From Asticcacaulis solisilvae (GTDB lineage: Bacteria > Pseudomonadota > Alphaproteobacteria > Caulobacterales > Caulobacteraceae), in NCBI RefSeq assembly GCF_017875235.1, contig NZ_JAGGMI010000003.1:372001-436000 (forward strand): a DNA stretch of 64,000 bases. Reading direction: 5' to 3'. The notes beneath the pieces were generated by a model. That model did no database searches. It saw nothing but the letters and a program-made list of their open reading frames with translations, and had not been told where the DNA came from. This document shows positions 5,200 through 60,339 of the stretch, piece after piece; positions within the stretch are counted from its first letter, which is position 1, and each line of letters begins with the position of its first letter. The position numbers and the translations under genes were made by a program.

Positions 5200-7221
5200 A
5201 TGACCGCATCGGCGACCCAGCTGAAATCCATTTCCGTCCGCCTCAAGGACCTCGACATCGCTCCGGAGAATCCCCGCTTCCTGGAAGGCCCGGACGACCA
5301 GATCCCTGACCTGGCGACAAGCCTCGCGCCTGATGCCGCGGGCCTTCTCGTGCCCTTGCTGGTGCGGGCAGGTGGCAAGAAGGAAAAGCCGTTCATGGCC
5401 CTGGATGGTCGCCGCCGGCTGTTCGGTTTTCGCCACCTGCTGGAGCAGGGCCTCATCAACGAGGACATCGAGATCGCTGCCTACCTGTGCGAATCGAAGG
5501 AATCGATCGCCGCAGCCGCCATTACCGCGAACCAGGCCCGCGTTCCGCTGAAGCCGGCCGAGATCATCCTGGCAATCCGAGCACTGGCTGCCAAGAAGAT
5601 TACAATCGAGGCCATGTCCCGCGCCCTGTGCGTCGATATCGCCGAAGCCCGGCGCTATCACGCCGTCAGCCAGGTCCATATGGATGTCCTGATGGCCTAC
5701 AAGGACAAGCTGTTCGATTTCGACGCCATGAAGCTGATTGCCCGCATTCCGTCCATGCCGGAACAGAAGGCACTGGCGAAGCTCGCGCGCGAACAGGGGA
5801 CGCTGCGCGCCTATCAGATCCGCGACTACATGGACAATGACGGCCTCTCAGCCCTCTCGTCGCTGATGCAATTCGTCGGTATGGACGATTACCTGGCCGC
5901 TGGCGGCCGCAAGTCCTGCGACCTGCTGGAAGAGATGCCCGATACCTGTCTGGATGCCGACCTTGCCATGCGTTTGTGGTCAGAGAAGGTGACGCCGATT
6001 CAGGCGGCGTTTGGGGCCCAGGGCATGGACGTCTTCATCTCGGCTGACGAAGACTGCTATGCGCCCGAGGGGTTCACTGAGGCGCCGTACCGCTATAACC
6101 GGTCGGTAGACGAGAAGACGGCGATCAGCACGGCGGAGGCGAGCCTTAACGAGGTCCGTGAGACAGTTAACGCCACGGCCCACGCAGATGGCGTCACTCC
6201 GGCGATCTTCCTGCCCCTCGTGGAACCGCAGCACGCGCTGGCCGTCGCCAAGTTCGCGCCAATGCCCGTCCGTGCGGTGCAGATCCGTCCCGGCCAGCGA
6301 ACCGTCCTGGAATTCCGCTTCTTTACGACGGCCGATGACATCCGTGCGTGGGAACAGGCCAAGATCGCGGCAAAGCCGGCAGAGGAACTTAAGGAGGAAA
6401 CACCCGCCCGGGTCGCCGACGTCATCCCGGAGCGCCGGATTGCCGTCGAGACCGACCACGGCGGCGCCTTCCACCAGCTCGCGTCGGAACTGGCGGTCCG
6501 CGGCTTCCAACGGTCCTTGGCCGACAGCTTCTCGGCCTCTTTCAAATTCCTCCTGGCCACCATGTTCGAGCAGGTCGTGCTGCACAAGGCCGGGGGCACG
6601 GTTGAAGATCGGGCGCTGAAGATGACCTTCGGCCGCAATATCGGTGCCTATTACCAGGAGCCAGTGCAGGGCCTGGACGCCGACCTGTTCACCCGGCTGG
6701 AGGTCTACCGCGACGCCTTTACGGAATCGGGCCTGCGCACCTATCCCTGGATTTCAAGCCTCGCCTTCCAGCAACTCCAGGACCTGCTGGCCCTGATGAC
6801 GGCGGTCTCGGTTTGGCTCAACGAACCCGACGCGAAGTTCATCCGCCGGACGGCGCGGGCGCAGATCCAGGAAGTCTCGGAAGAGATCGACCACGACATC
6901 CGCACACACTTCTTGCCGGATGCCGACTTCTACGCACGTTGCAGCAAGAAGCAACTGCTGGGCTACGCCGAGCGCATGGGGTGCGAGATGGATACGCTCG
7001 GGACGATGAAGAAAGCCCCGCTCGCCGAATATGTCGCCGAACAGGCGCAGGCGCGGCAATGGGTGCCGACGGTGCTGACCTTCGACAACGCCGCGGCGAT
7101 CGAGCCGGAGATCGACGACGAAAGTGAAGCCCCGACCGAAACCGATGACGGGGATCTTACGGCGGTTGAAGCCGCTCCGGCCGCCTTGGTCGTGGACGAC
7201 GACGAGGCGCTTGCCGCCTGA
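5200..7221 (+). CDS. ParB/RepB-fold plasmid protein
   Basis: A 673-aa protein with an N-terminal ParB/sulfiredoxin-like domain. About residues 60-75 read FMALDGRRRLFGF, the arginine patch of the ParB N-terminal domain, followed by an HTH-like helical region (about 120-210). The 400-residue C-terminal part is not one I recognise and ends in a very acidic tail. Proteins of this type are common on alphaproteobacterial conjugative plasmids beside sno-type helicases. True partition is probably handled by parA and its RHH partner, so the role here may be in DNA uptake or early gene control. It is followed by a terminator. Confidence 0.8.
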   Translation: MTASATQLKSISVRLKDLDIAPENPRFLEGPDDQIPDLATSLAPDAAGLLVPLLVRAGGKKEKPFMALDGRRRLFGFRHLLEQGLINEDIEIAAYLCESKESIAAAAITANQARVPLKPAEIILAIRALAAKKITIEAMSRALCVDIAEARRYHAVSQVHMDVLMAYKDKLFDFDAMKLIARIPSMPEQKALAKLAREQGTLRAYQIRDYMDNDGLSALSSLMQFVGMDDYLAAGGRKSCDLLEEMPDTCLDADLAMRLWSEKVTPIQAAFGAQGMDVFISADEDCYAPEGFTEAPYRYNRSVDEKTAISTAEASLNEVRETVNATAHADGVTPAIFLPLVEPQHALAVAKFAPMPVRAVQIRPGQRTVLEFRFFTTADDIRAWEQAKIAAKPAEELKEETPARVADVIPERRIAVETDHGGAFHQLASELAVRGFQRSLADSFSASFKFLLATMFEQVVLHKAGGTVEDRALKMTFGRNIGAYYQEPVQGLDADLFTRLEVYRDAFTESGLRTYPWISSLAFQQLQDLLALMTAVSVWLNEPDAKFIRRTARAQIQEVSEEIDHDIRTHFLPDADFYARCSKKQLLGYAERMGCEMDTLGTMKKAPLAEYVAEQAQARQWVPTVLTFDNAAAIEPEIDDESEAPTETDDGDLTAVEAAPAALVVDDDEALAA

Positions 7222-7227
7222 CACTCC

Positions 7228-7258
7228 GGGCCTCCGTCGCACGACGGGGGCCTTTGTT
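7228..7258 (+). terminator. Intrinsic terminator after the ParB-like gene
   Basis: CCGTCG (7234-7239) and CGACGG (7242-7247) form a stem that is extended by GGCC pairing outside it. TTTGTTCT follows. It begins 7 nt after the stop codon. Because it precedes the sno leader, sno should need its own promoter. Confidence 0.7.
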
Positions 7259-7267
7259 CTGCCGGCA

Positions 7268-7338
7268 GGAAGAGGGGAGGGAGGTCAAGGGCGACTGGAC
7301 TGTGGGGATGGGCCCCGCGCCAGCTCAGGAGCCTAACC
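7268..7338 (+). promoter_or_regulatory. Hairpin leader of sno (leader family, copy B)
   Basis: A 71-nt segment with the same start (GGAAGAGGGGAGGGAGG), length and fold as the leader at 5129. CTGG pairs with CCAG, and inside it GGGG pairs with CCCC around the conserved ATGG loop. AGGAG lies before the ATG. The base changes relative to copy A keep the stem. No standard -35/-10 pair is seen between the preceding terminator and this leader. Confidence 0.7.
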
Positions 7339-10300
7339 ATGTCTGCCAATCTTTCCCTGTTCGCCGCCTCCACCGTCAGCCGCTCGGCTGGCATTCTCAG
7401 CGCGGCGCGCGCCCTGCTTCCCGCCCTGACCAAGGCGAAGACCCTCGACCGCAATGCGGTCCGGGATGCGATGACCTTCGCCTTCATGGGCACCGACAGC
7501 GAAGGCCTGTGGACATGGAAAGACGCCTACGATGCCATCGAGGTTGCCCAGGTGCTTCATCTTCGCAAGATCGCTTACCAGGTCGCCCGCCTGGAAGATG
7601 CGCCACTCGAAACGATCATGGCCTTGCAGGCGCTCAATCGCCTGGGACTGACTCACACCCGCCGCAGCGAAGAACAGGTCGCTCTTGACCAGTTTTCGAC
7701 CCCGCCCGAGCTGGCCGCCCTGGCGGTGCTCGCCGCGCAGGTTCGCGACGGCGATCAGGTCCTGGAACCGTCTGCCGGTACCGGCATGCTCGCCATCCTG
7801 TCCGAACTGGCGGGCGCGAAACTGCATCTGAACGAGCTGGCGCCGACCCGCTCGGAGATCCTCGACGCCCTCTTTCCGGCAAGCGACCGCACGCGCCTCG
7901 ACGCCGCCATGCTCCACGACCGGGTGGTCGCCTCTGGCAGTTTCGACGCGGTCATCCTCAACCCGCCGTTCCAGCAACTCGAGGCCCATCTGCTCAGCGC
8001 AGGCAAATGTCTTGCCAACGGCGGCCGGGTCAGCGCCATCGTCCCGGCACGCTTCTTCGACTCGCCGGAGGCTCAGCGCCTCGCGCGGGCATTCGCGGTG
8101 CGAGCAGCGATCGTCCTGCCCGACGAGGCCTATACTAAGCATGGAACGAGCGTCGAGACCGGTCTTCTGGTGTTCGACCGGGTCGCGCCGGGGGAGGGGA
8201 TGGCGCAGCTTATGGCCTGCGAGACGCTGGAACAGGCCGTACAGGCGGTTCTTGCCGTTGCGCCTCGCCCAACAGCGCGAGCCAGAATATTCCGCTCCAC
8301 GGGCCTGCAATCGGCATTCGGCGGCGCGGGGACGGTCCGCCCAGCCATTTCGACCCGCCTAGCCTTTTTGCAGACGACCGCGATGGTGCAGTATGCGCCC
8401 AAGCCCTGGGCGGGTCTGGGCGCCGATGTCGGTCTGTACAGCGCCTACAGAGTCGCCCGGATGGCCTTCGAGCCAACCAACGATCATCCGTCCCATCTTG
8501 TCGAATCCGCGGCCATGGGTACGGTGTCGCCGCCCCTAGCGACCTACCAGCCCCTCCTTCCGCCCGGCGTGATCGGCGGCGGTCTGTCGGACGCCCAGAT
8601 GGAGACCGTCGTCTACGCAGGGCAAGCGCACGAGGACATACTTCCCGGGTGGTGGGCGCTGTCGGAAGGCCAGACGAGCTATGGTGCCGTCAAGGAAGGC
8701 CATCCCGGATCGTTCGCGCTGCGCAAGGGTTTCTTCCTCGGCGACGGTACCGGGGTCGGCAAAGGCCGTCAGATCTCGGCCATCATCGCGGACAATATCG
8801 CGCGCGGTCGCACCAAGGCCATGTGGATCTCGAAGAACGAGGAATTGCTGGAGGACGCGCGCCGTGACTGGACGGCCATCGGCGGAGCCCCCTCCGACCT
8901 GATTAGCCAGAATGCCTACAAGCTCGGTCAGGCCATCCGTGCCGACAAGGGCATCCTCTTCACCACCTATGCCACCCTGCGCGTCGCCGCCCGCCAGGAC
9001 AAGAAATCCCGTCTCGATCAACTGGTCGACTGGCTGGGTGCCGATTTCGACGGCACCCTGATCTTCGACGAGGCCCACGAGATGGCCAACGCCGCAGGCG
9101 GCAAGGGAAATCGCGGCATCAAAAAGCCGTCGCAACAGGGTCTTGCTGGGTTGATGCTGCAGTACCGCCTGCCGAAGGCACGGGTCGTCTACGTATCTGC
9201 GACTGGCGCCACGACGCCCGAAAATCTCGGCTACGCGTGCCGTCTGGGACTGTGGGGATCGGCCGAAGCGCCCTTCATGACCCGGGAGGACTTCCTGAAA
9301 GCCGCTGACGACGGCGGTGTCGCCGTCATGGAACTGATCGCGCGCGAACTGAAGGCCCAGGGCCTCTACACCGCCCGCATGTTGTCTTTCGACGGGCTGA
9401 CGATCGATCCGCTGATGCACGAGCTGACGGCAACGAACGTCGAGATCTGGGACGCCTGGGCCGATGCGTTCGAGATCATCCATCGCCATGTCGACAAGGC
9501 CCTTGAGGCAATAGGCGTCACATCCGACGGAAAAACCAATTCCGGCCAGGCCAAGGCCGCGGCCAAATCCGCTTTTGCTTCCACGGCCCAGCGCTTCTTC
9601 AACGCCCTGTTGTGCGGGTTCAAGGCCCCGACCCTGATCCGGGCGATAGAGGACGATGTCGCGGCCGGTTTCGCCTGCGTCGTTCAACTGGTGAGCACCA
9701 ACCAGGCGGTCATGGACCGGCGTCTCGACGCCGTGTCCCCGGCCGAGTGGAACGACCTGCACATCGACCTAACGCCGCGTGATACGGTCACCGAGTATCT
9801 GGAGCATTCGTTCCCGACGACCTGCATGGTCATGGAGACCGACGACAACGGCAACGAGATCGCCGTGCCTCTAAAAGATGCCGACGGCAATGCCGTCCAT
9901 TCCCAGGAGGCATTGGCCATGCGCGACGAGCTTATTCTCAGCCTGGCCACCCTTCCGGGCGTACCGGGGGTGCTGGACAGTCTGATCCATCACTTCGGAC
10001 CCGATCGCATTGCTGAAATCACCGGCCGCAGCCGGCGTGTCGTCATTAGGGAGGGGCGCATGATCCTGGAACGCCGGTCCTCTTCCTCGGCCAAGACCGA
10101 AACCGACGACTTCATGGGTGGCCGGAAGGACATTCTGGTTTTCAGCCAGGCGGGTGGAACCGGCCGCAGCTACCATGCCGACCGAGCGTGCGCGAACCAC
10201 AAGCAGCGCCGGCATTACCTGGTCGAGGCGGGTTGGCGTGCCGACAATGCCATCCAGGGCATCGGGCGAACCCACCGCTCGAACCAGGTGTCCGTGCCCT

Positions 10301-41286: not shown

Positions 41287-41577
41287 ATGCCTGGATATAT
41301 GATTTGCGGCGAATGTCAGCCGCCGAACTTGGATGAGGCGGCGATGCAGGACCTGCTTCGCCGACACTACACTGACTTCAAGGGCCAGCCTGCGCTCTGC
41401 CTATGCACAGACGTCCGCTCGCGCATGTATATTGCGCGCCTGGCCGACCAGTTCGTGCTCAAGCGGTGGCCGGGGAGCGGCCATGAGCATGCCGTCGATT
41501 GCGACCGTTACGAGCCGCCGCTCGAAGCTTCCGGTCTCGGGCGGTTGATGGGCTCAGCCATCCGGGAAGAGCGTTGA
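41287..41577 (+). CDS. DUF1173 protein, N-terminal part (split gene)
   Basis: 96 aa. RRHYTDFKGQPALCLC, FVLKRWPGSGHEHAVDC and YEPPLEASGLGRLMGSAIRE are the N-terminal landmarks of DUF1173, a protein of alphaproteobacterial mobile elements that is normally about 400 aa in one frame. Here the frame ends at TGA 41575-41577 and the rest continues in another frame. AAAGAGAGG precedes the ATG. It follows the relaxase gene by 36 nt, probably in the same transcript. Confidence 0.7.
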   Translation: MPGYMICGECQPPNLDEAAMQDLLRRHYTDFKGQPALCLCTDVRSRMYIARLADQFVLKRWPGSGHEHAVDCDRYEPPLEASGLGRLMGSAIREER

Positions 41578-42554
41578 CCGGCGACGTCGAGTTGCGGCTG
41601 GGCTTCCCTCTGAAGAAACAACCAAGGAATAGCGCGGCGCCGGCCGAGGCTCACCCTGAAGACACGACCGAGGACGTCCAGGATGGGAAGGTTTCGTCTT
41701 CCCGCGCCGGCTTCCGCGCCATTCTTCATTATCTATGGGACCAGGCCGAGTTGACGCACTGGAAGCCCGGGATGAAAGGTAAGCGTAACTGGTGGGTCAT
41801 CCGTAGCCGGCTGCTGGGCGCGGCGGCGCGCATGACCGCCAAGGGAATGCGGCTGAACCGGCGACTCTTCATTCCCGAACCGTTCAAAGTAGAGGCCAAG
41901 GACGAAATCCGCTTGCGCCGCCGGGCCTTGCTGCAAACCGTCGCCAGCCACAAGGCCGCCCGGGAATTGATGATGTTCCTGGTTGAGGTCAAGGAAATCG
42001 CGCCGTCGACCTACGGCTACAAGGTGATTGCGAAAAACGTTCCCGACGATCCGCTCTACATGTCCGAGGAGCTTTACGGCACGATCCGCCGCCGCTTCGA
42101 GACGGAGCTTGAGATGTTCTCCAGGACCGAAGGGCACGGCCACCTACTTGCTTTCGGCACCCTATCGGTCAAACCCAGCGGAATCGTAACGATCGAAGAC
42201 CTGACGCTCATGGCGACGACGGCCGAATGGATTCCGGTCTGCGACGAAACCGAGGCCGTGATCGTCGACTATTCGGTCGCGACCGGCCGCGCCTTCGTCA
42301 AGCCCCTGAAATACAACATGGGGCCGGGCAGGGCGCTCGCGGCCGTTCTCTTTACCGACAGCCCCGAAAAGCCGACCGCCTTCTACGTGGTCCGGCCGGA
42401 CGAGACCGAAACGCTGATCAAAGCGCGAGAAGAATTGCTGCAGAGCGCGGCCACCCTTCCAGTCCTGTGGCGCCTGGCTGACGATCCGATACCCAGCTCA
42501 GTGATCGACGGAATTCCGACCGTCGGTCGACGGACGGTAGCCGCCGCCTCTTAA
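41574..42554 (+). CDS. DUF1173 protein, C-terminal part (split gene)
   Basis: The C-terminal 326 residues of DUF1173: VELRLGFPL, FRAILHYLWDQAELTHWKPG, KRNWWVIRSRLLGAA, LMMFLVEVKEIAPSTYGYKV and MATTAEWIPV. The frame is open from 41499, but conserved sequence begins after TTG 41574, whose TTGA overlaps the stop of the first part. That gives either coupled re-initiation of a naturally split protein or a single frameshift. No slippery heptamer is visible at the junction. Confidence 0.65.
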   Translation: MTGDVELRLGFPLKKQPRNSAAPAEAHPEDTTEDVQDGKVSSSRAGFRAILHYLWDQAELTHWKPGMKGKRNWWVIRSRLLGAAARMTAKGMRLNRRLFIPEPFKVEAKDEIRLRRRALLQTVASHKAARELMMFLVEVKEIAPSTYGYKVIAKNVPDDPLYMSEELYGTIRRRFETELEMFSRTEGHGHLLAFGTLSVKPSGIVTIEDLTLMATTAEWIPVCDETEAVIVDYSVATGRAFVKPLKYNMGPGRALAAVLFTDSPEKPTAFYVVRPDETETLIKAREELLQSAATLPVLWRLADDPIPSSVIDGIPTVGRRTVAAAS

Positions 42555-42588
42555 GCGAAAGGTCCGTATTGACTCCTGCGGTAATCGA

Positions 42589-42603
42589 GAACACATATAG
42601 AAC
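42589..42603. promoter_or_regulatory. SOS (LexA) box
   Basis: GAAC-ACATATA-GAAC, a perfect direct-repeat LexA box of the alphaproteobacterial type (GAAC-N7-GAAC), 21 nt before the next start codon. TTGACT lies at 42569-42574. It puts the downstream gene, and perhaps the SRAP gene after it, under SOS control. Confidence 0.75.
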
Positions 42604-42623
42604 GTGTTTCCGTGGAGAGTATC

Positions 42624-43433
42624 ATGCAGCCACTTCGGTTCAGGGTGAAAAGCGTCGACGGCGATATCCGCGCCGAAATCGAGCGCGAAGTCTGTCCGTC
42701 CGTCGGGCAGTCCCTGCTTGTCTTCGACTACCCATACGTGGCCAGGTTTGTCGTTGAGCAGCTGGAGCCGAGGAAAGACGTTCTGCCGTTCGATCTGCTG
42801 GAACCGGCAACGATCGTCCTGCGCAGGGCGGAAGTCATCGAGCAGTCGAACCGTGCCAAGCGCGGTATCGGTATCGACCTGGCGAATGACCTTGTGGCGC
42901 GGGTCGAAAAGATTGGCGAACTTGCCCGAACCTACATCACTGAAAAGCTGGCCCTCGAAATCTGCCATGCGGATCTTGTTGAGCTGTGCGCCGGCAGCGG
43001 TCTGACGTCAGACATAGCGTCCATCGACCTGTTCCTTTTCCGGGGCATTCCCATGACGGTGGGCGAGCGGGATTGCGACTGGAATGCGTATACGGCCTTC
43101 TGTGGCTTCAACGACGATATGTGCGTGCTCTACGTCACCCTGCCGGGTGGCCAGCCATTCGTCATGGAACCGCGCTACCTTGAGCTGATGCGCAAGATCG
43201 GCCGCGGCGAAGTCATGGAAGACGAAGCGGTCGAGGATGTCTGCCTCGGCCTGGTCGAGAAGGGGCTCCCGATCACCGACACGGTTCTGCAACGGATCAA
43301 GAATGCGGTATCCCTGGCGGTCGAAGGGATTATGCCGCCCTACGATGCAGCCCAGGAGCTGGTGCGCGTAACACAGCCAGCGCATTGTTCAGAGGCGTTG
43401 GCCGATACGACAGTGCAATGCGGTTCTAGATAA
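42624..43433 (+). CDS. Hypothetical SOS-controlled protein, 269 aa
   Basis: A 269-aa protein starting MQPLRFRVKSVDGDIRAEIE, with GGAGAG before ATG 42624 (a GTG at 42612 is less likely). I do not recognise a family. It is a mixed alpha/beta protein without membrane segments; the centre reads DFLFR-like IDLFLFRGIPMTVGERDCDW and MCVLYVTLPGGQPFVM. It has a perfect SOS box directly upstream and is followed 34 nt later by a SRAP gene, so a DNA-damage role is a fair inference. Confidence 0.65.
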   Translation: MQPLRFRVKSVDGDIRAEIEREVCPSVGQSLLVFDYPYVARFVVEQLEPRKDVLPFDLLEPATIVLRRAEVIEQSNRAKRGIGIDLANDLVARVEKIGELARTYITEKLALEICHADLVELCAGSGLTSDIASIDLFLFRGIPMTVGERDCDWNAYTAFCGFNDDMCVLYVTLPGGQPFVMEPRYLELMRKIGRGEVMEDEAVEDVCLGLVEKGLPITDTVLQRIKNAVSLAVEGIMPPYDAAQELVRVTQPAHCSEALADTTVQCGSR

Positions 43434-43467
43434 AGCAGTTGTTCCAGTAGCTGAGTAGAGTGAGCGT

Positions 43468-44100
43468 ATGTGTGGACGTTATGGCGGCCCCAAAGAACAT
43501 GAGGTCTTTTCCGGCTATCTGGCGGTTCCGCCGCCGTTTCGAAATCTGAAATTACAAGAGACGGAGATGTTGGCGGCGAGAACCGTCCAAGTGTATGCCC
43601 GAAATCAGGCCGGCGAACACGTATTGAAGGAGATGCGGTGGGGATTGATCCCGCCTAGCCATGTCTTGGCGCCGGAACTTTACGACGGCAACACCTTCCA
43701 CGCCCGGCTTGAAACCGTACATGAAAAGCCTGCCTACCGGGAGGCGTGGCTCAAGAAACGGCGCTGCCTGTTTCCGATGGCGCACTTCCAACAAAAGGTC
43801 AAAGCGGGTTCCGACTTATTTGGCCGGACGGACAAGACGGTGAAGCTGAACATCACCCGCGCCGATGACAGGCCGATGGGCGTGGCAGGCATCTACAGCG
43901 CCATCAAAACGCCGGCGGGCCTTGTCCTGTCGGTCGCCATGCTGACGCGGGCGCCCGGGCCGCGCATGTTAAAGATACATGACCGCGAACCGGTCGTGAT
44001 CGAGCCCGAGCAGTTTTCCGCCTGGCTCGACGGGGAGGACGATATCGGTCTGGCCGAGCCTTGGGCGGACAATGCCTTCGACTACAAACTGGTTGCTTAG
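43468..44100 (+). CDS. Divergent SRAP (YedK/HMCES-like) protein
   Basis: A 210-aa SRAP protein. SRAP proteins crosslink their Cys2 to abasic sites in single-stranded DNA and shield them. Cys2 is present (MCGRY) and so are RWGLIPP and ETVHEKPAYREAW. The usual Asn-Ala-Arg motif reads FHARLET here, and the catalytic-Glu segment (normally F-Y-E-W after RCL-P) reads RCLFPMAHFQQK with no Glu. The His region is IHDREPVVI. So DNA binding and crosslinking may remain while crosslink reversal is altered (inference). It shares the SOS-controlled region with the gene before it. Confidence 0.8.
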   Translation: MCGRYGGPKEHEVFSGYLAVPPPFRNLKLQETEMLAARTVQVYARNQAGEHVLKEMRWGLIPPSHVLAPELYDGNTFHARLETVHEKPAYREAWLKKRRCLFPMAHFQQKVKAGSDLFGRTDKTVKLNITRADDRPMGVAGIYSAIKTPAGLVLSVAMLTRAPGPRMLKIHDREPVVIEPEQFSAWLDGEDDIGLAEPWADNAFDYKLVA

Positions 44101-44816
44101 AACAGATCGAGCTGGGGTTTTGGCGTAGGCGCAAAGGCCGGATGGCGCGGTTCAGCCCATGGAGGGTCGAATTTCTGGCCTCGTGCGACCACCTGTAAAG
44201 TGCCATTCGCCAAAGGTCTCTGCAGGTCGAGTGCGTCATCGACATCGGCGGAGAGCCAGTAGTCTATGGACGCCGGCGTGCGCAGGATCACCGGCATGGC
44301 CTTTGGATGGAAGGTACCGACATCCTTATTCGCCTCCGTTGTCAGAAAGGCATAGAGATCGTCGGTCGATTCACCTTCGGACACTTTCCGCACGCTCGTC
44401 CAACTGGGAAGCCATATGCCGGCAAAGAAAAAGAGTGGCCGGTCTTCGGTCAAGGCGAACCATATATTTTCCTTCGATCCGCTGGCCTGATCAGGCTCGC
44501 AAAACGAAGTTACCGGTACGACGCAGCGGTTTTCGACGTCCAGCCATTGCCGCCAATGCCAAGAATCCGTTTCCCGGACATTCGTGACCCCATTGTCGTA
44601 GTTTTTCCCTTCGAGCGCCTTCGCACTCTTCGGCATCCCCCATCGCGACAGGGCGAGTTCGCGGCCATCGAGGGTATTGCGGACGATTGGTGCATATTCG
44701 TTTGGAAATACGTCAGGATGACTGCCGAGATTGTCCGCGTTGACGGCGACGCGCAAATACCTGGCAAACTCACGGATCGCTTCTTTGTTCGACGTCATGG
44801 AATAGAGATTGCACAT
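44097..44816 (-). CDS. SRAP (YedK/HMCES-like) protein
   Basis: A 239-aa SRAP protein on the minus strand with canonical features: MCNLYSM (Cys2), TNVRET (Asn/Arg), RCVVPVTSFCEP (catalytic Glu) and FHPKAMPVIL (His). It would protect abasic sites in single-stranded DNA by a covalent Cys2 bond. It is convergent with the divergent SRAP gene, overlapping it by 4 bp, and lies downstream of the Ku-LigD-XthA-DUF4385 run on the same strand after a 107-nt gap. Confidence 0.88.
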   Translation of the reverse strand: MCNLYSMTSNKEAIREFARYLRVAVNADNLGSHPDVFPNEYAPIVRNTLDGRELALSRWGMPKSAKALEGKNYDNGVTNVRETDSWHWRQWLDVENRCVVPVTSFCEPDQASGSKENIWFALTEDRPLFFFAGIWLPSWTSVRKVSEGESTDDLYAFLTTEANKDVGTFHPKAMPVILRTPASIDYWLSADVDDALDLQRPLANGTLQVVARGQKFDPPWAEPRHPAFAPTPKPQLDLF

Positions 44817-49257: not shown

Positions 49258-51597
49258 TCAAACGCCTAGTCGAGTATATCTGCTGCGGAGTTTGTTCTGA
49301 ATCTCCTCAAAATACCCAAGGTCGCCGGGGCTCGCCGAAAGTACAACATCACATTGTTGTCGTTGGTTGCTGGCGACCGGGGCCAACAGGGCCTGCAACC
49401 GGCCGGCTTCCTGGTTGCCGTTGACCGCGACGAGCGCCGCTTTCGCGGCCCAGTCGGCCGTGGCCAGGCATTCAATGACACGCCGCTGCTCCGACTCGAC
49501 GGGTTCGACGTGCAAATTGCGGACGACATTCAGCCTCGACAAAGCGGCAATAGTCCGTCCCAGCAAGCGTGGCCAATCATGGCCTTCGCGAATATATGCC
49601 GGAAGGACCTCTCGTTCCCGAGCGGCGCCGCCGATGGGTTGCGCGTGGTCGAGGATGACTTGAAGCAGTAGCCTGGCGCGAACGGTCTCAGACGTCGAGA
49701 TTGTCTCGACCGTACGTGAACGGCACCGCTTTTCGAAGGCCGTCACGGCGTCCTGGATTTTCTTTGCCGTCAAAAGACCCTGATTTTTCCGGGCCTCTTG
49801 TTTCGGCGTTCGTGGAACGTCCGGCGGCTGGTCAGGGAGGACCTCGGCATCTTGGTCAGTGGGTTCCGTGGTCTCGATGTTGGCCAGGGTTTGACGCGCA
49901 AGCTCTGCTTCCTCGGCCGCGTCCAGATCCTCGCCGACCAGATTGATCAATTGGTTCAAGCAGTCGGCAAGGTACGACCCTGCGCGTCCCAGCGATCCCA
50001 AGTAAGGGCTCTCGATCACGCCGGCGAGGCGAGCCTCCGTCCTGGCGCGCACAAATTCGTCGTAAGGCAGCACCCGTGATTGCGGACCGGCCGCCTGGTC
50101 GCCTGAGACAACTCGGAGCCGGGTTAGATCCGCTGCTTCTTCCGCTTGGTCCGATAGGTCGAGTTGCTCCAGCTCATTCAGGATTTCGAGAAGACTGAGG
50201 TCGGCATCTTCAGCGGTCTGCAAGGCGTCTATCAGTTTACCCTTGCGACCGCCTTGGGACGGCAATGTCGAGGCCTCCAGCGTATCCAGATCGATCACCG
50301 AAACCGGTGCTGAAACGGCACCGTTGGGAAATTGGACGAGGCCGTACCGAGGGCGGGCGCTCTCCGGTTCAACCACCCAGGGACCGGTTGATGCAGAGGG
50401 CTGATCCTCCTGCCGAAACAAGAGCGCGTCGTCACGGTCGTACAACGCGATCTTTGCTTCGAGATAGTCCGGCCCGACCGGCGGTCTCCATGTCAGGACG
50501 CGGTCGAGAATGACCAATCGCCCACCATCGAGAGCGGTCGAAGACGATATATCGATGGACAGAGCATTCGAGAGGGGGGCCATGTCAGCCGGCACCAGTG
50601 GGAAGTCTTCGTAACCCGCGAGGCCGAGGATCTCAAACGCCGTACCCGCCGGAAGCCGCCGGTAAATTCCGGCCTCAGCATTTCCACTGGCGGCCCTTCG
50701 CCCAAGGAGAGCGGCAAACGTACAGTTCATGCTGCCCGAAATCACATGATCCCATGATTTGCCTTGGGCGATGATCAGCTTGGCATGCAGGAAGCGCGTG
50801 CCGAGAAATTTCCCGCCCTTGAAGGCTTTCAGATCGAAGAGTTTTGTTCCTGCGACACGGTCCAAGGCCTCGATCGGAAAAGGTTGGCCGGCGGTGGAGA
50901 GAATATGGATAGGCGGGTTAGCCATGGCGCCGCGAAGCCGGACTAGCCCTTCCAGTCCTGCGTCCCAGTAGGGCGACACGACGGTCAGTCGCTCGATCTC
51001 GTCGGATGCAATCAGGGTTTCAATTTGGTCGACGATTGTCCTGTCGGGCTCATCCATAAGCAGGCTCAGCTCGGCGCTCTCATGGCGCTCTGACGAAATC
51101 ACCGCTTGCCGCAGCCAAGGCGTGTTTTTTAACAGCCTGTCGATGGCCATTTCAAAGCCGGGGAAATTCGCGGGGGCATAGCTGCGAATATAGTCCAAGG
51201 CGGCGGCGAACAGCCCCGCGGTCTCCGGCTCGTCCTCACCCCATTCGATTGTGGTGACCAGCTCCTTGTTACCTGCCAGGCCGAGAGCCGTCAGGTTGGC
51301 GGAGCCGACCATTAATCGGCCTTTGCTTTTGCCGACCAGCATCGCGATTTTGGGATGGAATGCCTGGGGCGCGTCGACCGGAATGAGGTGATAGGAGCTG
51401 CCAGCAAAGCGAGGGGGGCCGAATTCCGAAGAGGCTTGATTGGCCATGACGCGATCGGCAAGGACGAGGATATTCCGGCATCCGGCGCCCCTCAAGCGCG
51501 GCAACGGAATGTCCTCGAACGCCAATGATCCGAAAGCGAATGTGGTTAGAAATGCAGAATGGAATCCGCTCTGGCCGAAGGCGTCATAATATTTCAC
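49258..51597 (-). CDS. Phospholipase D-fold nuclease-like protein, 779 aa
   Basis: The N-terminal 320 residues hold two HKD-type motifs: FHPKIAMLVG with MVGSANLT (about 80-100) and FLHAKLIIAQ with ISGSMNCTF (about 269-292). Two HKD motifs in one chain make a complete PLD active site, as in DNA-cutting or DNA-binding PLD proteins of defence systems. The remaining 450 residues are not recognised. It is the last gene of a three-gene minus-strand operon and overlaps the gene before it by 4 nt. It could be a defence effector; no helicase of the DISARM type is present. Confidence 0.75.
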   Translation of the reverse strand: MKYYDAFGQSGFHSAFLTTFAFGSLAFEDIPLPRLRGAGCRNILVLADRVMANQASSEFGPPRFAGSSYHLIPVDAPQAFHPKIAMLVGKSKGRLMVGSANLTALGLAGNKELVTTIEWGEDEPETAGLFAAALDYIRSYAPANFPGFEMAIDRLLKNTPWLRQAVISSERHESAELSLLMDEPDRTIVDQIETLIASDEIERLTVVSPYWDAGLEGLVRLRGAMANPPIHILSTAGQPFPIEALDRVAGTKLFDLKAFKGGKFLGTRFLHAKLIIAQGKSWDHVISGSMNCTFAALLGRRAASGNAEAGIYRRLPAGTAFEILGLAGYEDFPLVPADMAPLSNALSIDISSSTALDGGRLVILDRVLTWRPPVGPDYLEAKIALYDRDDALLFRQEDQPSASTGPWVVEPESARPRYGLVQFPNGAVSAPVSVIDLDTLEASTLPSQGGRKGKLIDALQTAEDADLSLLEILNELEQLDLSDQAEEAADLTRLRVVSGDQAAGPQSRVLPYDEFVRARTEARLAGVIESPYLGSLGRAGSYLADCLNQLINLVGEDLDAAEEAELARQTLANIETTEPTDQDAEVLPDQPPDVPRTPKQEARKNQGLLTAKKIQDAVTAFEKRCRSRTVETISTSETVRARLLLQVILDHAQPIGGAAREREVLPAYIREGHDWPRLLGRTIAALSRLNVVRNLHVEPVESEQRRVIECLATADWAAKAALVAVNGNQEAGRLQALLAPVASNQRQQCDVVLSASPGDLGYFEEIQNKLRSRYTRLGV

Positions 51598-53117
51598 GAC
51601 GGCGCCAACTCCCTCTGTCCAAAGGCGGTGAGCCCTCGTTCGTCGATGAGCTTTGCATCCGACAGGAAATTTAAGGCCTGGTCCAATCGCGGGCTGCTGG
51701 GAGAGAGGGTGATGTCGTCCCGGTATCGAAGGAGCCCGTCAGCCGGTTCCATCAGGTAGGTATAGGCTCTTTGGTTCCTGAATTTCCGCGAGGCGACCCA
51801 GAGGTGTCGTTTGATAACCCGGTCGCGGATGATGAGGGTCCCCACGGCTTCGGCCGATGCTTGCGAATGTGCAGCGAGGAATTTCAGTTCGCTACGCAGG
51901 GATTGAAAGTAATCCGCCGCCGGCAGCACGTCGTCGATCAAGGTTTGGAGATCTGTGGCTCGCCTGACGAGCTTCGCTATCAGCGCAAAAGCGGATGAGA
52001 CCTGGTCGCCCAAATTGCCATCCGCTTTCGCCTGGACCATGCCGGCATAGAGTTGGCGTACAGGCTTCTCCGCACTTCCATCCATGCAGAATTGAGACCA
52101 GCTTAGGTCGTTCGGCAAAGACGCGGACTGGACGAGTTGTGTGACAAGGGCTCCCAGCGACAAATGCCTGGACGGTTCTATTGCCAGGAGCTTGAGCCCT
52201 GCATCCATTATGTACTCGTACGCCAACCTCAGGAGATCGGATAGCTGATACAGGGTCCAGAGGCTCTGGACGCGACCCTCGTTTCCGGGTTCGGCTTCCG
52301 CTTCGAGCCATGTCCATTTCGCGTCGTCGGCTCGCGGCTTCGCGCCTCTGCTTGCGGTCAGCTGCAGCAGCATTTTCATTGTGTCGCGGCGGCGCAAGTC
52401 GGCGCCTGAACCGTCTGGAGAGAGACCTAGCAAAAGCTGGATCAGCAGCCGGCATTCCGCGCCCTCTGGATTTAAGGCGCCGGGCTTGAGGCGCCCCAAC
52501 GCATCTAGTGTCGCCATGGACACCTTGCCGCTGGCGACCGCATCGAGAATGGTCTCTGAGGCGTCTCCCAGGATTTCCGCGAAGGCCTTGGCTAAAGCGA
52601 GACCACGCTCCGTGCAAACCGGCACAGGGTTTTCAGTTGTGCCCAATAGGACAAGTCCGATGTCTTGCATTTGGGTCGAATAAATTGCCCCAAAGGCTCC
52701 GGCCTTGTTTTTCAGGTAACGGTCGCCGCTGGTGTCTGGGTGTGCCCCATCCGCAAAGGCAATCTCAACATTCGGATCGCCGGCCCCTTGGATTTTTGCA
52801 ACCTGCTTTTGTGCCCATTCAATACCCGTAACCCCAGTCTCATAGGGCCCGCGAGCAGCTATCAATGCGTAGAGAAGTTCGCAGCGCCGATGGAATATCC
52901 GGAATTCCTGCGGATCGGTGTTCCCAATTTTTGACGCGTAGGCTTCGAGCATCCAGCAAAAAAAGGAGTAGTACCTGAGGCGCAGCGTGATGGTGCTGAT
53001 TCCAGGAATTAAGGCCTGATAGATCACTTCGATCGGGCGCTGCATGCCGAGCGGGTCAAGTCCACCTTCTTGTCCAAGTTCCGTCCATTCAGGTACGGCG
53101 GCCACGCCTCCATCCAT
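51594..53117 (-). CDS. Hypothetical protein of the PLD operon, 507 aa
   Basis: A 507-aa, mainly helical, soluble protein that I do not recognise. The conserved-looking N-terminus reads WTELGQEGGLDPLGMQRPIE then VIYQALIPGISTITLRLRYY. The C-terminal part ends in a winged-helix-like LDQALNFLSDAKLIDERGLTA. Coupling to the PLD gene by a 4-nt overlap says the two act together, for example as sensor and effector (inference). The small 82-aa gene lies 21 nt upstream. Confidence 0.7.
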   Translation of the reverse strand: MDGGVAAVPEWTELGQEGGLDPLGMQRPIEVIYQALIPGISTITLRLRYYSFFCWMLEAYASKIGNTDPQEFRIFHRRCELLYALIAARGPYETGVTGIEWAQKQVAKIQGAGDPNVEIAFADGAHPDTSGDRYLKNKAGAFGAIYSTQMQDIGLVLLGTTENPVPVCTERGLALAKAFAEILGDASETILDAVASGKVSMATLDALGRLKPGALNPEGAECRLLIQLLLGLSPDGSGADLRRRDTMKMLLQLTASRGAKPRADDAKWTWLEAEAEPGNEGRVQSLWTLYQLSDLLRLAYEYIMDAGLKLLAIEPSRHLSLGALVTQLVQSASLPNDLSWSQFCMDGSAEKPVRQLYAGMVQAKADGNLGDQVSSAFALIAKLVRRATDLQTLIDDVLPAADYFQSLRSELKFLAAHSQASAEAVGTLIIRDRVIKRHLWVASRKFRNQRAYTYLMEPADGLLRYRDDITLSPSSPRLDQALNFLSDAKLIDERGLTAFGQRELAPS

Positions 53118-54836: not shown

Positions 54837-54851
54837 GAACAAATATAGAAC
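54837..54851. promoter_or_regulatory. SOS (LexA) box of imuA-imuB-dnaE2
   Basis: GAAC-AAATATA-GAAC, a perfect alphaproteobacterial LexA box, 65 nt before the imuA start in an AT-rich promoter region. This cassette is LexA-controlled in other alphaproteobacteria. Confidence 0.85.
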
Positions 54852-54915: not shown

Positions 54916-55671
54916 ATGTCACGACGAGATGCCGTCCGCATTGCCGAGCTGCGTGACCAGATCGAACGGATCAGCTGTATTGCCTCGCGTACCCGCTCTG
55001 TCCTTCCGTTTGGTATTTCCGAGATCGACCGCCGTCTTCCGAAAGGTGGGCTTGCCCTGGGCGCTCTTCATGAGATCGCCGGCGGCGCCAATGGAGCGGT
55101 AGACGGCGCAGCGGCAATTGCATTCGCAGCCGGCATTGTTGCGCGGACGGGGGGACAGGTGCTTTGGTGCTTCAGCCAAGCAGACCTTTTCAGCCCCGCA
55201 CTCGCGCAATCGGGTTTGACCGAGGATCGCGTCGTATTCTTCGAGGCCCCGGATGACGAGACCATTCTGGGATGCTGCGAAGAGGCGCTGCGCCATGGAG
55301 GCCTGACGGCCGTCGTTGGCGAGGTCGCAAAGCTTTCCCGCACCTCTTCACAGCGCCTGCAAATGGCTGCCGAAACAACCGGCACCATGGCAATCGCCGT
55401 GCGCCGCTGGAAACGCCAGGTGGACGCGCGGGATTTCGGCAATCCAACGGCGGCCTATACGCGTTGGCGGGTAACGGAAACACAATCTGCCTCTCTACCG
55501 GTCCGCGGCGTCGGCCGGTCACGATGGTTATTGGAGTTGATGCGGTGCAGGGGAGGGGATTGCGCCGATTTTGAAGTCGAGGCGTGTGATGCCAAGGGTC
55601 TTATCGCTTTTCCTTCCAACGTGGCCGACCGATCGGCTTCGGCGGGCGAACAGCGACGCGCCGCCTCGTGA
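54916..55671 (+). CDS. imuA: ImuA, SOS mutagenesis cassette protein
   Basis: A 251-aa RecA-like ImuA (SulA-related). The N-terminal region RTRSVLPFGISEIDRRLPKG then GLALGALHEIAGGANGAVDG is typical, replacing a classical Walker A. It acts with ImuB and DnaE2 in error-prone translesion synthesis after DNA damage. An upstream SOS box and the order imuA-imuB-dnaE2 confirm the call. Its end overlaps the start of imuB by about 83 nt. Confidence 0.92.
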   Translation: MSRRDAVRIAELRDQIERISCIASRTRSVLPFGISEIDRRLPKGGLALGALHEIAGGANGAVDGAAAIAFAAGIVARTGGQVLWCFSQADLFSPALAQSGLTEDRVVFFEAPDDETILGCCEEALRHGGLTAVVGEVAKLSRTSSQRLQMAAETTGTMAIAVRRWKRQVDARDFGNPTAAYTRWRVTETQSASLPVRGVGRSRWLLELMRCRGGDCADFEVEACDAKGLIAFPSNVADRSASAGEQRRAAS

Positions 55672-57106
55672 TGTGCCGCTCGCTCTAAAATCGAAGGTCG
55701 GCTCGAAGCGGATCATATCCGCCGTCGATGATCTTGCGCGTCAGGCGGGGCTGTATCGTGGCATGCCTGTTGCCAAAGCGCAGGTACTGGTGTCCGGGCT
55801 ACAGATCCTCGATGCCGATCCAGAGGCAGATGCACTTGCCCTTGAAAAGTTGGCCCGCTGGGCTTTGCGGCATTATTCGCCAATAGTCGCGGCCGACCCG
55901 CGCGATGGGCTGGTTTTGGACATCGCCGGCTGCGAACATTTACATGGCGACGAAGCCGGTCTCGTGGCGGACATGCGTCGCAGGCTGGACGAGGTCGGCG
56001 TGGCCACATATGCCGCCCTTGCCGATACTTGGGGCGCCGCGCATGGTTTGGCGCGGTATGGCGGAAAAACGGTCTGTATCGTCGCGCCTGGCGAGACATC
56101 GAAGACAATCGCAGCCCTGCCCATCGGCGCCTTGCGGCTAGATCCTGAACTGGTCCAGGAGCTGTTGCTTCTCGGGATCGACACCGTCGGCGAACTGGCG
56201 GCAAAACCGCGGGCGCCGCTGGCGCGGCGATATGGTCCAAGCATGTTCCGGCGGGTCGACCAGGCATTCGGCCGAACGGCCGAGCCGATTATTCCGGTGG
56301 AGTGTCCTGAGCTGATATCCGTTTCGAAGGTATTCGCCGAGCCCATCGGTGCGCCTGAAACCCTGGAAAAGTACACACGTCGTCTGGTCGCCCAGATTTG
56401 CCAACGACTTGAAGAGGCCAGCCGGGGCGCCCGGCGCCTGGACCTGCAGTTTATCCGGGTGGACAATCGCATTGAGGTCGTAAGCGTGGCCACGGCAAAG
56501 CCGGTACGCGATCAGCGGCGCCTAGCCAAATTATTATGCGATAAGATTGAGACTGTCGATCCTGGCTTCGGCATAGAAAAAATGGTGATGACCGCCATTC
56601 ACGCAGAACCTTTGGCGTATAGCCAGATTGCAAGCAGTTTTGCAGAGGCCTCCCGAACCGAAGTCGAGGATCTATGGGATACGCTGGCCAACCGCTACGG
56701 CGAGGGACGTCTATTCCGTGCCGTGTCCGTTGCGACAGACATACCCGAGCGGGCGGTGAGACGCTTGCCGCCGACGGCAACGGATCTCGGATCGGTTCGG
56801 AACGCAAAGTTCCGGCGTCCGTTGCGGCTTTACAGGCCCGAGTCCATCCAAGCGCTGTCGGTCTTGCCGGACCACCCACCCAAGGCTTTTACCTGGCGCG
56901 GCCAGCGCTACGCGGTCGCACGTGCCGACGGGCCTGAACGTGTGAAGGGCGAATGGTGGCGGACAGACGGCGAAGCCGGCAAGGTCCGCGATTACTTCGT
57001 CCTGGAAGTGGAGAGCGGTGAGCGGTTTTGGGTTTTCCGGGCAGGCGACGGACAGCATAGCGATACCGGTTCACTGCACTGGTACCTTCACGGCAAGTTC
57101 GGTTAG
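55589..57106 (+). CDS. imuB: ImuB, Y-family polymerase-like hub
   Basis: 505 aa from ATG 55589 ([20 protein letters not shown]); an in-frame ATG at 55571 is also open. It is a Y-family polymerase fold that has lost the catalytic carboxylates: the N-terminal strand reads LSLFLPTWP where active enzymes have an Asp-containing motif. ImuB recruits DnaE2 and the beta clamp. The palm-like [20 protein letters not shown] and finger regions are intact and the length is normal. The overlap with imuA and the 5-nt gap to dnaE2 indicate one operon. Confidence 0.92.
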
Positions 57107-57111
57107 CGAAT

Positions 57112-60100
57112 ATGGCTTATGTCGAACTGCAATGCGCCTCGCACTTCTCATTCCTGCAGGGCTGTAGCTCACCTGATGAGCTGTTTTTTCAGGCGCAGGC
57201 GCTGGGCATGGACGCCCTGGCGATCGCCGACCGCAATACTCTTGCTGGCCTGGTGCGAGCGCACGTGGCTTCGCAAGCCACTGGGGTCCGGCTGATCATT
57301 GGCTGTTGGCTGGACCTCAACGATGGCATGTCGCTTCTTGTCTATCCGACCGATCGCGCGGCCTACGGTAGGCTTTGCCGTATATTGTCGGTTGGCAAAG
57401 GCCGAGCCGGGAAGGGGAAGTGCGATCTTAGCTGGGCGGATGTCGAGGATTTTCATGAGGGCCTGATCGCGGTTCTGGTTTCGGACGAAGCCGACGAGCT
57501 TTGCGCGCAACGCCTGCGCAAACTCAAGGCGCTATTTGCTGATCGCGCCTACATGTCGTTAAGTCTGCGCCGCCGGCAGGGTGATCATTTGCGTTTGCAC
57601 GCTTTATCACAGCTGGCCTTCCGACACCGGGTGCCGACCGTGGTGACCAATGACGTTCTCTACCATGTCCATGACCGCGACATGCTCCATGACGTCGTCA
57701 CCTGCATCCGGCATAACTGTACGATCGACACCATGGGGAACCTCCGCCACCTCTATGCTGACCGATATCTGAAGGACGGTGCCGAGATGGCGCGGCTATT
57801 CGCCGACTACCGCGAGGCCTTAGCGCGCACCCAGGAAATAGTCGACCGATGCCGGTTTTCGCTCGACGAGCTCAGGTACCAATATCCAGAAGAAAGACTG
57901 ATGCCCGGTCTGTCGGCCGACGAGGCCTTGCGCCGCCTGACATGGCAGGGCGCGAAATGGCGCTACCCCGAGGGTGTGCCCGACAAGGTCATCAGCCTTT
58001 TGAAACACGAGCTCGACCTGATCCGGCGCCTTGAATACGCGCCCTATTTTCTGACCGTGAATTCCATCGTCCAGTTCGCCCGGTCGAAGGACATCCTGTG
58101 CCAAGGACGCGGCTCAGCTGCCAATAGCTGCGTATGTTTCGTGCTTGGAATCACTTCGATCGATCCGGATCGCAATGATTTGCTGTTCGAGCGGTTCATT
58201 TCCGAAGAGCGGCGCGAACCGCCAGACATCGACGTCGACTTTGAACACCAGAGGCGGGAAGAAGTCCTGCAGTGGGTTTATGAGACCTATGGTCGAAACC
58301 ACGCCGCCCTGACGGCCGTGGTCACTCGTTTCCGCACGCGCGGAGCCATCCGCGCGGTGCTGAAGGTGATGGGATATCCCGAAGACACGATCAAGACCTT
58401 ATCGAGTCAAATCCATCATTGGCACCGCGGTGGCTTCAGCGAAGCCGACGCCGAGGGCCTAAGCATCAATCTGAAGGACCGGCGCCTGCAATTGGCCATC
58501 GCCCTGCATCGCGATCTGCTCAATGTGCCGCGCCATCTGTCACAGCACCCTGGCGGCTTCGTCCTGACGCACGACCGGCTCGACGAACTGGTGCCGATTG
58601 AACCAGCCGCAATGAAGGACCGCCAGGTCATCGAATGGGACAAGGATGACATCGACGCTCTGAAGTTCATGAAGGTGGATTGTTTGGCGTTGGGCATGAT
58701 GAGTTGCATGAAACGCTCGTTCGATATGCTGGCGGACCACAAGGGCGTTCAGCTCGATATTGCCACCATGCCGGCTGAAGACCCGAAAACCTACGCCATG
58801 ATCCGCAGGGCTGACACGCTCGGCACCTTCCAGATCGAGAGCCGCGCCCAGATGGCCATGTTACCGCGGATCAAACCCCGGACGTTCTACGACTTGGTCA
58901 TTGAGGTCGCCATCGTCCGGCCAGGTCCGATCCAGGGCGACATGGTCCATCCCTACCTACGGCGCCGGGAGGGCAAGGAACCGGTCTCATTTCCGAAGCC
59001 CGAACTCGAAGCGATCCTCGGCAAGACGTTGGGTGTGCCACTTTTTCAGGAGCAGGCGATGCGTGTCGTCGTCGAATGTGCCGGCTTTAGCCCAGGCAAG
59101 GCCGATCTGGTCCGGCGGGCCATGGCGACGTTCAAGCACACCGGCGGCGTCTCGAAATTCCACGACGAGATCATCGAGGGGATGATGGCCAATGGCTATT
59201 CTGAGGATTACGCCAAGCAGCTGTTCGCCCAACTCGAGGGGTTCGGATCGTATGGCTTCCCTGAGAGCCACGCCGCGAGCTTCGCCTTGATCGCCTATGC
59301 GTCCGCCTGGATGAAATGCCATCATCCCGAGGTATTCTGCGCCAGCCTGCTCAACAGCCAGCCCATGGGCTTTTATGCGCCGGCGCAAATTGTCAGGAAC
59401 GCTATCGAGCACGGTGTCGAAGTACGGCCGATCTGCGTCAACCGTTCGCGTTGGGACTGCACCTTGGAGCCAACGGACAGGGAAGGGCGCTTCGCCGTTC
59501 GCCTGGGTTTCCGCATGGTCAGCGGCGTCCGCAGCCACGACATCGCCGAAATGGTTCTTCATCGCGACGACATGCCGTTCAAATCGATACCAGAACTTTG
59601 GCGGCGAGCGCGAACATCGACCGCGACATTGCAGCGCCTGGCCAAGGCCGACGCTTTTAAACCGGCTTTCAGTTTGGCGCGACGCGACGCCCTGTTCGCG
59701 ATCCGCGCGCTGGGGGACGGTGAACTGCCTTTGTTCGACCGTCTAATTGTTGGCGCCGGCCACAGTGCGCCAGGCGTGACAGAGCCCCCCATGGACCTAA
59801 AGCCAATGACGGCCGGCGCCGAGGTTGTAGAAGACTATAATCATGTCGGCCTGACCCTGGGCCCGCATCCTCTCAGCTTCTTGCGCGATGATCTAACGAA
59901 GCGCGGTATCATCACCTGCAAGGACGCCATGCGCTCAAAGGACAAGCGCTACGTCCAAGTCGCCGGGATGGTCCTTGTCCGTCAGCGACCGGGCTCGGCC
60001 AATGGCGTCATCTTCATGACAATCGAGGATGAAAGCGGTGACGCCAATATCGTAGTCTGGGAAAAGACCGGCGATGAATACAAGTCGGTGCTCTACGGCT

Positions 60101-60339
60101 CCAGCATGTTGCTCGTCAGCGGCTACATCCAGAGGGAAGGGGAAGTGGTGCATCTGATCACACGGTCGATGGCCGATCTATCGCCGATGCTTGCTAGCGT
60201 CGGTCGGAGGGATGTAACGCTCAAAGCGCCGCGCCAGCCCGGCGACGAATTCCGCAACGGTGGGCCGAACTGGGATCACCGAGTGCCGGGCTTCGTGCAG
60301 GATGGCAGCCTGAGACATTCGAGCCGGGATTTCAGGTAG
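57112..60339 (+). CDS. dnaE2: DnaE2 (ImuC) error-prone DNA polymerase
   Basis: A 1075-aa C-family polymerase of the DnaE2/ImuC type. The N-terminal PHP domain reads [20 protein letters not shown] then [14 protein letters not shown]; the polymerase core has [16 protein letters not shown] (about 330) and [15 protein letters not shown] (about 372-386). A C-terminal OB fold ([20 protein letters not shown]) is present. It carries out mutagenic translesion synthesis with ImuA and ImuB. Compared with the replicative DnaE1 it is shorter and lacks the C-terminal tau-binding part, as usual for DnaE2. Confidence 0.95.

Follow-up and report, generated by a model that had tools for sequence, protein, structure and literature searches.

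A Putative SOS-Controlled Lineage of SRAP Proteins With Repeated Loss of Catalytic Residues, Encoded Beside a Canonical SRAP and an Orphan Partner Gene

Results

Gene Content of the Locus

The window, meaning the whole 64,000-nucleotide stretch of DNA that was analysed, corresponds to bases 372001–436000 of contig C3 (439,449 bases), which is part of a 5.0-Mb genome (5,007,880 bases) labelled G000. A VirC1/ParA-type ATPase, a coupling protein and a TrwC relaxase are all encoded in the window, and contig C3 is therefore probably a conjugative plasmid or chromid. The genes under study follow the order relaxase, DUF1173, SOS box, 269-aa orphan ORF, variant SRAP and convergent canonical SRAP. Farther along the window lie a DUF4385 gene, an exonuclease-III-type nuclease, LigD and Ku, and imuA-imuB-dnaE2 follows a second box. 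The features to which the text refers are listed below.

42569–42574, + strand: TTGACT, resembling a −35 element and separated from the SOS box by 14 nt, found by eye
42589–42603, + strand: LexA-type SOS box GAACACATATAGAAC, a perfect GAAC-N7-GAAC
42624–43433, + strand: orphan partner gene, 269 aa, of no known family
43468–44100, + strand: variant SRAP, 210 aa (Pfam SRAP), with Cys2 kept, Asn replaced by His78, Glu replaced by Gln109 and His171 kept
43471–43473, + strand: codon of Cys2, the retained nucleophile (sequence, alignment)
43699–43701, + strand: codon of His78, at the position of YedK Asn75 (sequence, alignment)
43792–43794, + strand: codon of Gln109, at the position of YedK Glu105 (sequence, alignment)
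43978–43980, + strand: codon of His171, at the position of YedK His160, retained (sequence, alignment)
44097–44816, − strand: canonical SRAP (MCNLYS type), convergent with the variant, with Cys2, Asn, Glu and His kept; the two 3' ends overlap by 4 nt
54837–54851, + strand: sister SOS box GAACAAATATAGAAC before imuA, found by motif search
54916–60339, + strand: imuA-imuB-dnaE2 (54916–55671, 55571–57106 and 57112–60339), with Pfam IMS and DNA polymerase III alpha domains

The 269-aa ORF and the variant SRAP are separated by a gap of 34 nt. The ORF that we take to be imuA, from its position in the usual gene order, gave no match in the Pfam search. The DUF1173 gene of the window (41287–42554) is read as two overlapping ORFs covering profile positions 13–88 and 91–384, and its counterpart in genome G149 is a single ORF of 422 aa; the split is a frameshift or a sequencing error. 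Within the repair island and adjoining Ku-LigD, two genes at 49258–53117 match PADLOC profiles in part, one ZacB (E 6.1e-13) and the other ZacA (E 6.1e-8), and this pair is a possible candidate for a defence operon.

In G000 as a whole there are twelve SRAP matches, representing around 11 genes, on contigs C1, C3, C4, C5, C8, C9 and C11, with the C4 copy broken across two frames and the C8 copy a fragment. A second repair island in the same genome (L050, C5:170000–184000) encodes imuA, imuB, a canonical SRAP, an intact member of the subfamily described below and a shorter LigD-like gene.

The Variant SRAP of the Window

The variant protein matches Pfam SRAP (PF02586) at E 1.4e-29, with 103.6 bits against a curated cut-off of 27.1, and its AF2 model (7 rows, pLDDT 74.7) adopts the SRAP fold, with Z scores of 18.8 to 1zn6, 17.0 to HMCES and 16.5 to YedK, and a range of 14.6–18.8 across 15 SRAP entries. 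Its motifs read FHARLET, where NAR is found elsewhere, and AHFQQK, where Glu is found elsewhere, with the His of IHDREP kept. The sequence-only reading had already described AHFQQ in place of Glu and HAR in place of Asn-Ala-Arg, and both replacements, Gln109 and His78, were confirmed against the background SRAPs of the family (n = 25), which carry Cys2 in 25/25, Asn in 25/25, Glu in 25/25 and His in 24/25. A better alignment, which might have restored the catalytic residues, leaves them lost: in the HMMER alignment to the solved SRAP 1zn6, Gln stands opposite Glu and His opposite Asn, at two columns that are invariant in the 25 background SRAPs. With regard to the features of an abasic-site-crosslinking SRAP, the window copy has Cys2 and His171, and the equivalents of Glu105 and Asn75 are replaced.

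Distribution and Phylogeny of the Subfamily

A subfamily profile, built from nine members and searched in 25 genomes of an Asticcacaulis-like genus, returned ten sequences at 217–299 bits, nine of which had built the profile and so match by construction, and the next SRAP scored 144. The ten come from six of the 25 genomes, with three in G000, two in G145, two in G029 and the remainder in G014, G114 and G149. No subfamily member was found outside the genus in samples of 376 genomes of the class (E 1e-36) and 299 genomes of the order (E 1e-42), both searched with strict cut-offs, and the other genera among 199 family genomes gave matches of 74 bits at most. All 443 SRAP records in a plasmid collection had less than 60% identity to the variant SRAP, the best among the matches listed having 33%, and five SRAP loci in viral contigs had 28–31%.

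The ten members were separated from three outgroup SRAPs with support of 100/99 (95/93 when only well-filled columns were used), and a clade of eight members, without the two G029 copies, received 100/98 and 100/99. The Cys2-less copies G145C32 and G149 fall within one clade (100/98) with the copies of the window and G014, and G000C9 and G114 form a sister pair (88/90 and 88/93). The branch leading to the G149 SRAP is long (0.93 and 0.88 in the two trees).

Loss of Active-Site Residues

Three of the ten members (G000C5, G029a and G029b) are intact and the other seven are degenerate, with Glu lost in 6/7, Asn in 6/7, Cys2 in 5/7 and His in 1/7. Their residues at the active-site positions are given below, where "truncated" means that around the first 33 residues, Cys2 included, are missing.

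Window and G014: Cys2 kept, His for Asn, Gln for Glu (the same residue set)
G145C32: truncated, His for Asn, Gln for Glu
G145C13: truncated, Asn retained, Gln for Glu
G000C9: truncated, His for Asn, Glu retained
G114: truncated, His for Asn, Gly for Glu
G149: truncated, His for Asn, Gln for Glu, Asn replacing the later His

Ahead of the five truncated copies, the 402 nt searched contain no MCG start in any sense frame; the two upstream MC dipeptides of G145C13 are in another frame, neither of them before Gly nor in the SRAP frame, and the start of G145C32 is uncertain, with several GTG/TTG candidates. In four of the five truncated copies an SOS box lies 21–48 nt before the start codon, and in G149 the start overlaps the end of the partner gene. 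At least three changes are needed to account for truncation on the tree, and a single clade of truncated copies was rejected (p-AU 0.00027) in an AU test that was run after the first tree had already been viewed.

The replacements recur, with His at the Asn position in 6/7 degenerate copies, Gln at the Glu position in 5/7 and Lys at residue 110 (window 43795–43797) in 6/7, the last a position held by Trp in 24/25 background SRAPs. Losses also extend beyond the active site: Pro36 is kept in 1/7 degenerate copies (background 25/25), Arg57 in 2/7 (24/25), Arg98 in 5/7 (25/25) and Phe156 in 0/7 (25/25), a pattern equally expected under relaxed selection. By contrast, 7/7 leave unchanged a set of thirteen background-conserved columns, including Arg80, Thr160, Arg173, Pro175 and Trp186, and none of the seven degenerate ORFs is interrupted. 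In nearly all pairs conservation is far stronger at codon positions 1 and 2 than at position 3, with identities of 0.74, 0.74 and 0.35 over 174 codons in the truncated sister pair G000C9/G114. Synonymous sites are saturated, so that recent relaxation could escape notice and omega values are not given. If truncation was ancestral to this pair, as their common layout suggests, then constraint would have acted on a protein that already had no Cys2.

Placement of the SOS Box

GAACN7GAAC is the LexA operator motif of alphaproteobacteria, and in the window a perfect copy precedes the 269-aa gene and then the SRAP gene, as had been read from the sequence, with 20 nt between the end of the box and the ATG at 42624. 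The motif is thus found where an operator of the LexA regulon would be expected, just upstream of the gene. The number of such boxes in the window, three where 2.06 were expected (mean of shuffles), is by itself no evidence, and it is the position that carries weight.

The pattern GAACANANATAGAAC occurs four times in the 5,007,880 bases of G000 (reversed control 0; 0.044 expected from window base composition), the sites preceding the window partner gene, imuA and the other two subfamily copies (C5 and C9), a count that is circular as a test, the pattern having been drawn after all four sites were viewed, and that shows only the absence of further sites. For this reason a control on other ORFs was run. 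In 9/10 subfamily loci, the exception being G029b, a perfect box lies 15–62 nt upstream of the gene that opens the unit, and a box that close was found before 0/167 other ORFs of at least 90 aa in the window and nine related stretches, with starts picked mechanically and imuAB units excluded. A GAACN7GAAC box (GAACATATTGCGAAC) is also present 90 nt upstream of recA in G000. Because boxes are found at nine of ten loci as against none of 167 ORFs, and recA of the same genome carries one, the predicted SOS control of the variant SRAP units is well supported by comparison. The earlier interpretation as a damage-induced pair is partly supported.

As judged by eye, TTGAC stands 18–20 nt (start to start) before 6/9 of the SRAP-unit boxes and 19–21 nt before 4/4 of the imuA boxes shown; a consensus promoter scan reported nothing at the SOS box or for TTGACT.

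The Canonical SRAP Neighbour

The canonical SRAP that had been noticed on the opposite strand beside the variant is indeed present with its catalytic residues intact, and such neighbours are common in the subfamily. In 8/10 loci, comprising all seven degenerate loci and that of G000C5, the variant has a canonical-type SRAP no more than 1 kb away, and the stretches surrounding the two intact G029 copies yielded no such gene. These neighbours retain Asn, Glu and His in 8/8 and start with ATG-Cys in 6/8, both exceptions being in G145: in the canonical neighbour of G145C32 (canonical-type SRAP at L059, around 6760–7500, − strand) the codon before Cys is ATC rather than ATG, which makes its start and N-terminal Cys uncertain, and in that of G145C13 the N-terminal part is replaced. 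Five of the seven degenerate loci have a canonical neighbour with a normal start.

Pairwise distances of the variant and canonical SRAPs are correlated with r 0.41, a value reached in 1762 of 40320 exact permutations, and with r 0.55 (107 of 5040) when the fragmentary G145C13 is left out. The correlation is weak, and co-divergence of the two SRAPs is borderline.

The 269-aa Partner

In keeping with the description of the 269-aa gene as belonging to no known family, it had no Pfam or NCBIfam match over the cut-off and only sub-threshold noise in PHROGs; more broadly, nothing over the cut-off or with a low E-value was returned from Pfam, NCBIfam, PADLOC, PHROGs or a PDB sequence profile. Matches to SseB_C, enolase and a phage polymerase (E 0.058, 0.085 and 0.25) all fall in one stretch, residues 67–134, and were rejected, SseB_C being unrepeated in the Pfam scan of the relatives. 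Structure prediction, which had been put forward as a check, delivered a probable helical C-terminal part and no fold assignment: the AF2 model (2 rows, pLDDT 41.9) is confident only at around residues 181–252, and this low-confidence model had no PDB match with E < 0.001.

Among named relatives, the closest to the partner comes from an uncultured Asticcacaulis MAG, at 79% identity. The partner occurs in 5/199 family genomes (6/199 per search before chance matches were dropped). The matches discarded were in G070 (E 5.4e-5), inside a cyclic-nucleotide-binding/reductase protein, and in G109 (E 0.0043), restricted to positions 75–150. The partner profile found its own genome only among 385 genomes of the class, and the partner was found in neither the plasmid collection nor the viral contigs.

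In all five loci the partner adjoins a subfamily SRAP, in an order shared by the window, G149 and G014, with the SRAP first in G114 and with divergent genes in G029; the G114 partner is broken by frameshifts. Between the window and G149 the codon positions 1, 2 and 3 of the partner are 0.85, 0.92 and 0.56 identical (250 codons), and the DNA of the two is 79.8% identical over 2380 bases running through the partner gene and ending near 43378, past which no likeness was found within the 5 kb compared. This end of the likeness after the partner implies a joint exchange, or a joint divergence, of the two SRAPs.

Discussion

The variant protein clearly falls in the SRAP family (YedK, HMCES; PF02586), as evidenced through its Pfam match, its fold and the Cys2 and His of the window copy. 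Its genomic setting near imuAB-dnaE2, Ku and LigD is also familiar, SRAPs being placed with ImuA-ImuB-DnaE2 and with Ku and ligase in the gene contexts that PMC3765255 sets out. Unlike other members of the family, its Glu and Asn are replaced, and five of the nine relatives of the window protein have neither Cys2 nor around the first 33 residues; it differs further in having an SOS box directly upstream, a second, canonical SRAP beside it and an orphan gene. The SRAP family is known. Among the titles and abstract starts searched in the open-access literature, none dealt with a natural SRAP clade without Cys2 or Glu, with the repeated loss of catalytic residues in this clade or with the orphan partner.

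The reading that we put forward, tentatively and at close to even odds, is that the SOS box, orphan gene, variant SRAP and facing canonical SRAP make up a LexA-controlled DNA-damage cassette, in which the variant would be a non-covalent helper or competitor and the 269-aa protein its accessory. LexA would leave the box upon DNA damage, and the variant SRAP would then be made and bind single-stranded or abasic-site DNA without efficient crosslinking, serving or competing with the adjoining canonical SRAP much as ImuB, described as an apparently inactive paralogue, serves together with DnaE2, with the 269-aa protein as the accessory of the variant. This reading takes the box position, the residue losses, the adjacency and the constraint from the sequence, and would add to them LexA repression, DNA binding, the helper role and any interaction. 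The five relatives without the N-terminus have no Cys2 and therefore could not form the thiazolidine made by that residue; since they nonetheless appear to be constrained, the simplest function common to all seven degenerate copies would be a non-covalent one, which may be binding of single-stranded or abasic DNA or of the canonical SRAP itself. The subfamily is probably a genus-limited SRAP clade that is giving up covalent chemistry and keeping the fold and thirteen conserved columns. It is possible, at somewhat less than even odds, that it amounts to a natural SRAP pseudoenzyme lineage under SOS control, repeatedly stripped of Cys2, Glu and Asn and kept as partners that bind single-stranded or abasic DNA and tune the adjacent active SRAP, together with an undescribed accessory family. 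Against the term pseudoenzyme, the window copy keeps Cys2 and His, G000C9 keeps Glu and G145C13 keeps Asn. The window copy, with Cys2 still present, looks like an intermediate in the loss of chemistry. A sensor role for the variant SRAP is also possible.

Other explanations have to be weighed, beginning with the suggestion that the variant may form lasting crosslinks. With Cys2 and His171 kept, and the same residue set found in G014, the window protein may still crosslink, and a close precedent exists in the laboratory mutant YedK E105Q, which has the identical change at the identical position. In the passages of PMC9436759 on active-site mutants, E105Q is biphasic, its fast phase being slowed at least 2.5-fold and its slow phase 1000-fold relative to wild type, and no exchange of its crosslink was seen over 24 h; the effect of N75A was very modest, and H160A and H160Q were around 10-fold slower. 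From these kinetics the window protein would be expected to form crosslinks poorly and scarcely to release them, and such very slow, irreversible crosslinking of abasic sites could provide lasting protection or a damage mark. E105Q is, however, a mutant made in the laboratory, and the natural variant also has Asn changed to His and relatives that have no Cys2. Four of those five Cys2-less relatives have a like box directly before the gene and all five have a canonical-type neighbour, and two of them (G145C32 and G149) share a clade with the window and G014 copies. The suggestion thus keeps the E105Q precedent in its favour and loses ground with the lineage, which points to a non-covalent role, and we consider a slow crosslinker unlikely. 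Decay is also unlikely, with slightly more weight given that the losses reach conserved residues beyond the active site: redundant SRAPs on islands and plasmids would be losing function under selection relaxed by the neighbouring SRAP. The losses are piecemeal and repeated, as decay would have it, and a canonical-type neighbour accompanies every degenerate copy (five with a normal start) and is absent for two of the three intact ones; the long branch of the G149 copy and the frameshifted G114 partner fit as well. Decay does not readily account for seven open reading frames out of seven, the thirteen unchanged columns, the retained boxes or the weaker conservation of the third codon position, the last with the reservation on saturated synonymous sites and recent relaxation given above.

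A role in plasmid transfer, with the pair guarding or handling single-stranded plasmid DNA as it enters, is suggested by its position just behind the TrwC relaxase operon, directly after traD-traI-DUF1173 in both the window and G149. The G014, G114 and G029 loci had no match to the traD, traI or DUF1173 of the window in the 14 kb read, these being the only genes sought, and the G014 and G114 contigs exceed 1.4 Mb, which makes this role improbable. The recurrence of His (6/7), Gln (5/7) and Lys (6/7, against Trp in 24/25 of the background) could instead mean that His78 and Lys110 together form a different activity, such as a lyase that works without Cys2; on the predicted strand 106–111, however, Lys110 is next to Gln109, and as side chains alternate along a strand it probably faces away, so that new chemistry seems very improbable indeed.

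The non-covalent helper or competitor that we favour has parallels among other inactive paralogues. ImuA is described as an inactive RecA paralogue and ImuB as an apparently inactive UmuC paralogue (PMC3765255), giving a case of SOS-controlled inactive paralogues that go with an active repair enzyme, and in G000 they have a similar box. They are unrelated to SRAP, and the account in PMC3765255 describes a joint repair complex, whereas a helper role is what we infer for the variant SRAP. Prozyme, the dead AdoMet decarboxylase paralogue of trypanosomes, provides a model, in the terms of PMC5201418, of a dead paralogue regulating its live relative, although the enzyme and the organisms are different and a complex of the variant with the canonical SRAP is only putative.

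SRAP proteins such as YedK and human HMCES owe their interest to a single reaction, in which they bond covalently to abasic DNA. If the reading is true, a clade that has shed this reaction while keeping the fold and the SOS switch, beside a canonical-type copy, would represent a second, non-covalent use of SRAP. The subfamily would also offer ready natural mutants, some with Glu changed to Gln and Cys2 in place and others without Cys2, for separating binding from crosslinking, along with an unnamed, SOS-linked protein family as a test subject.
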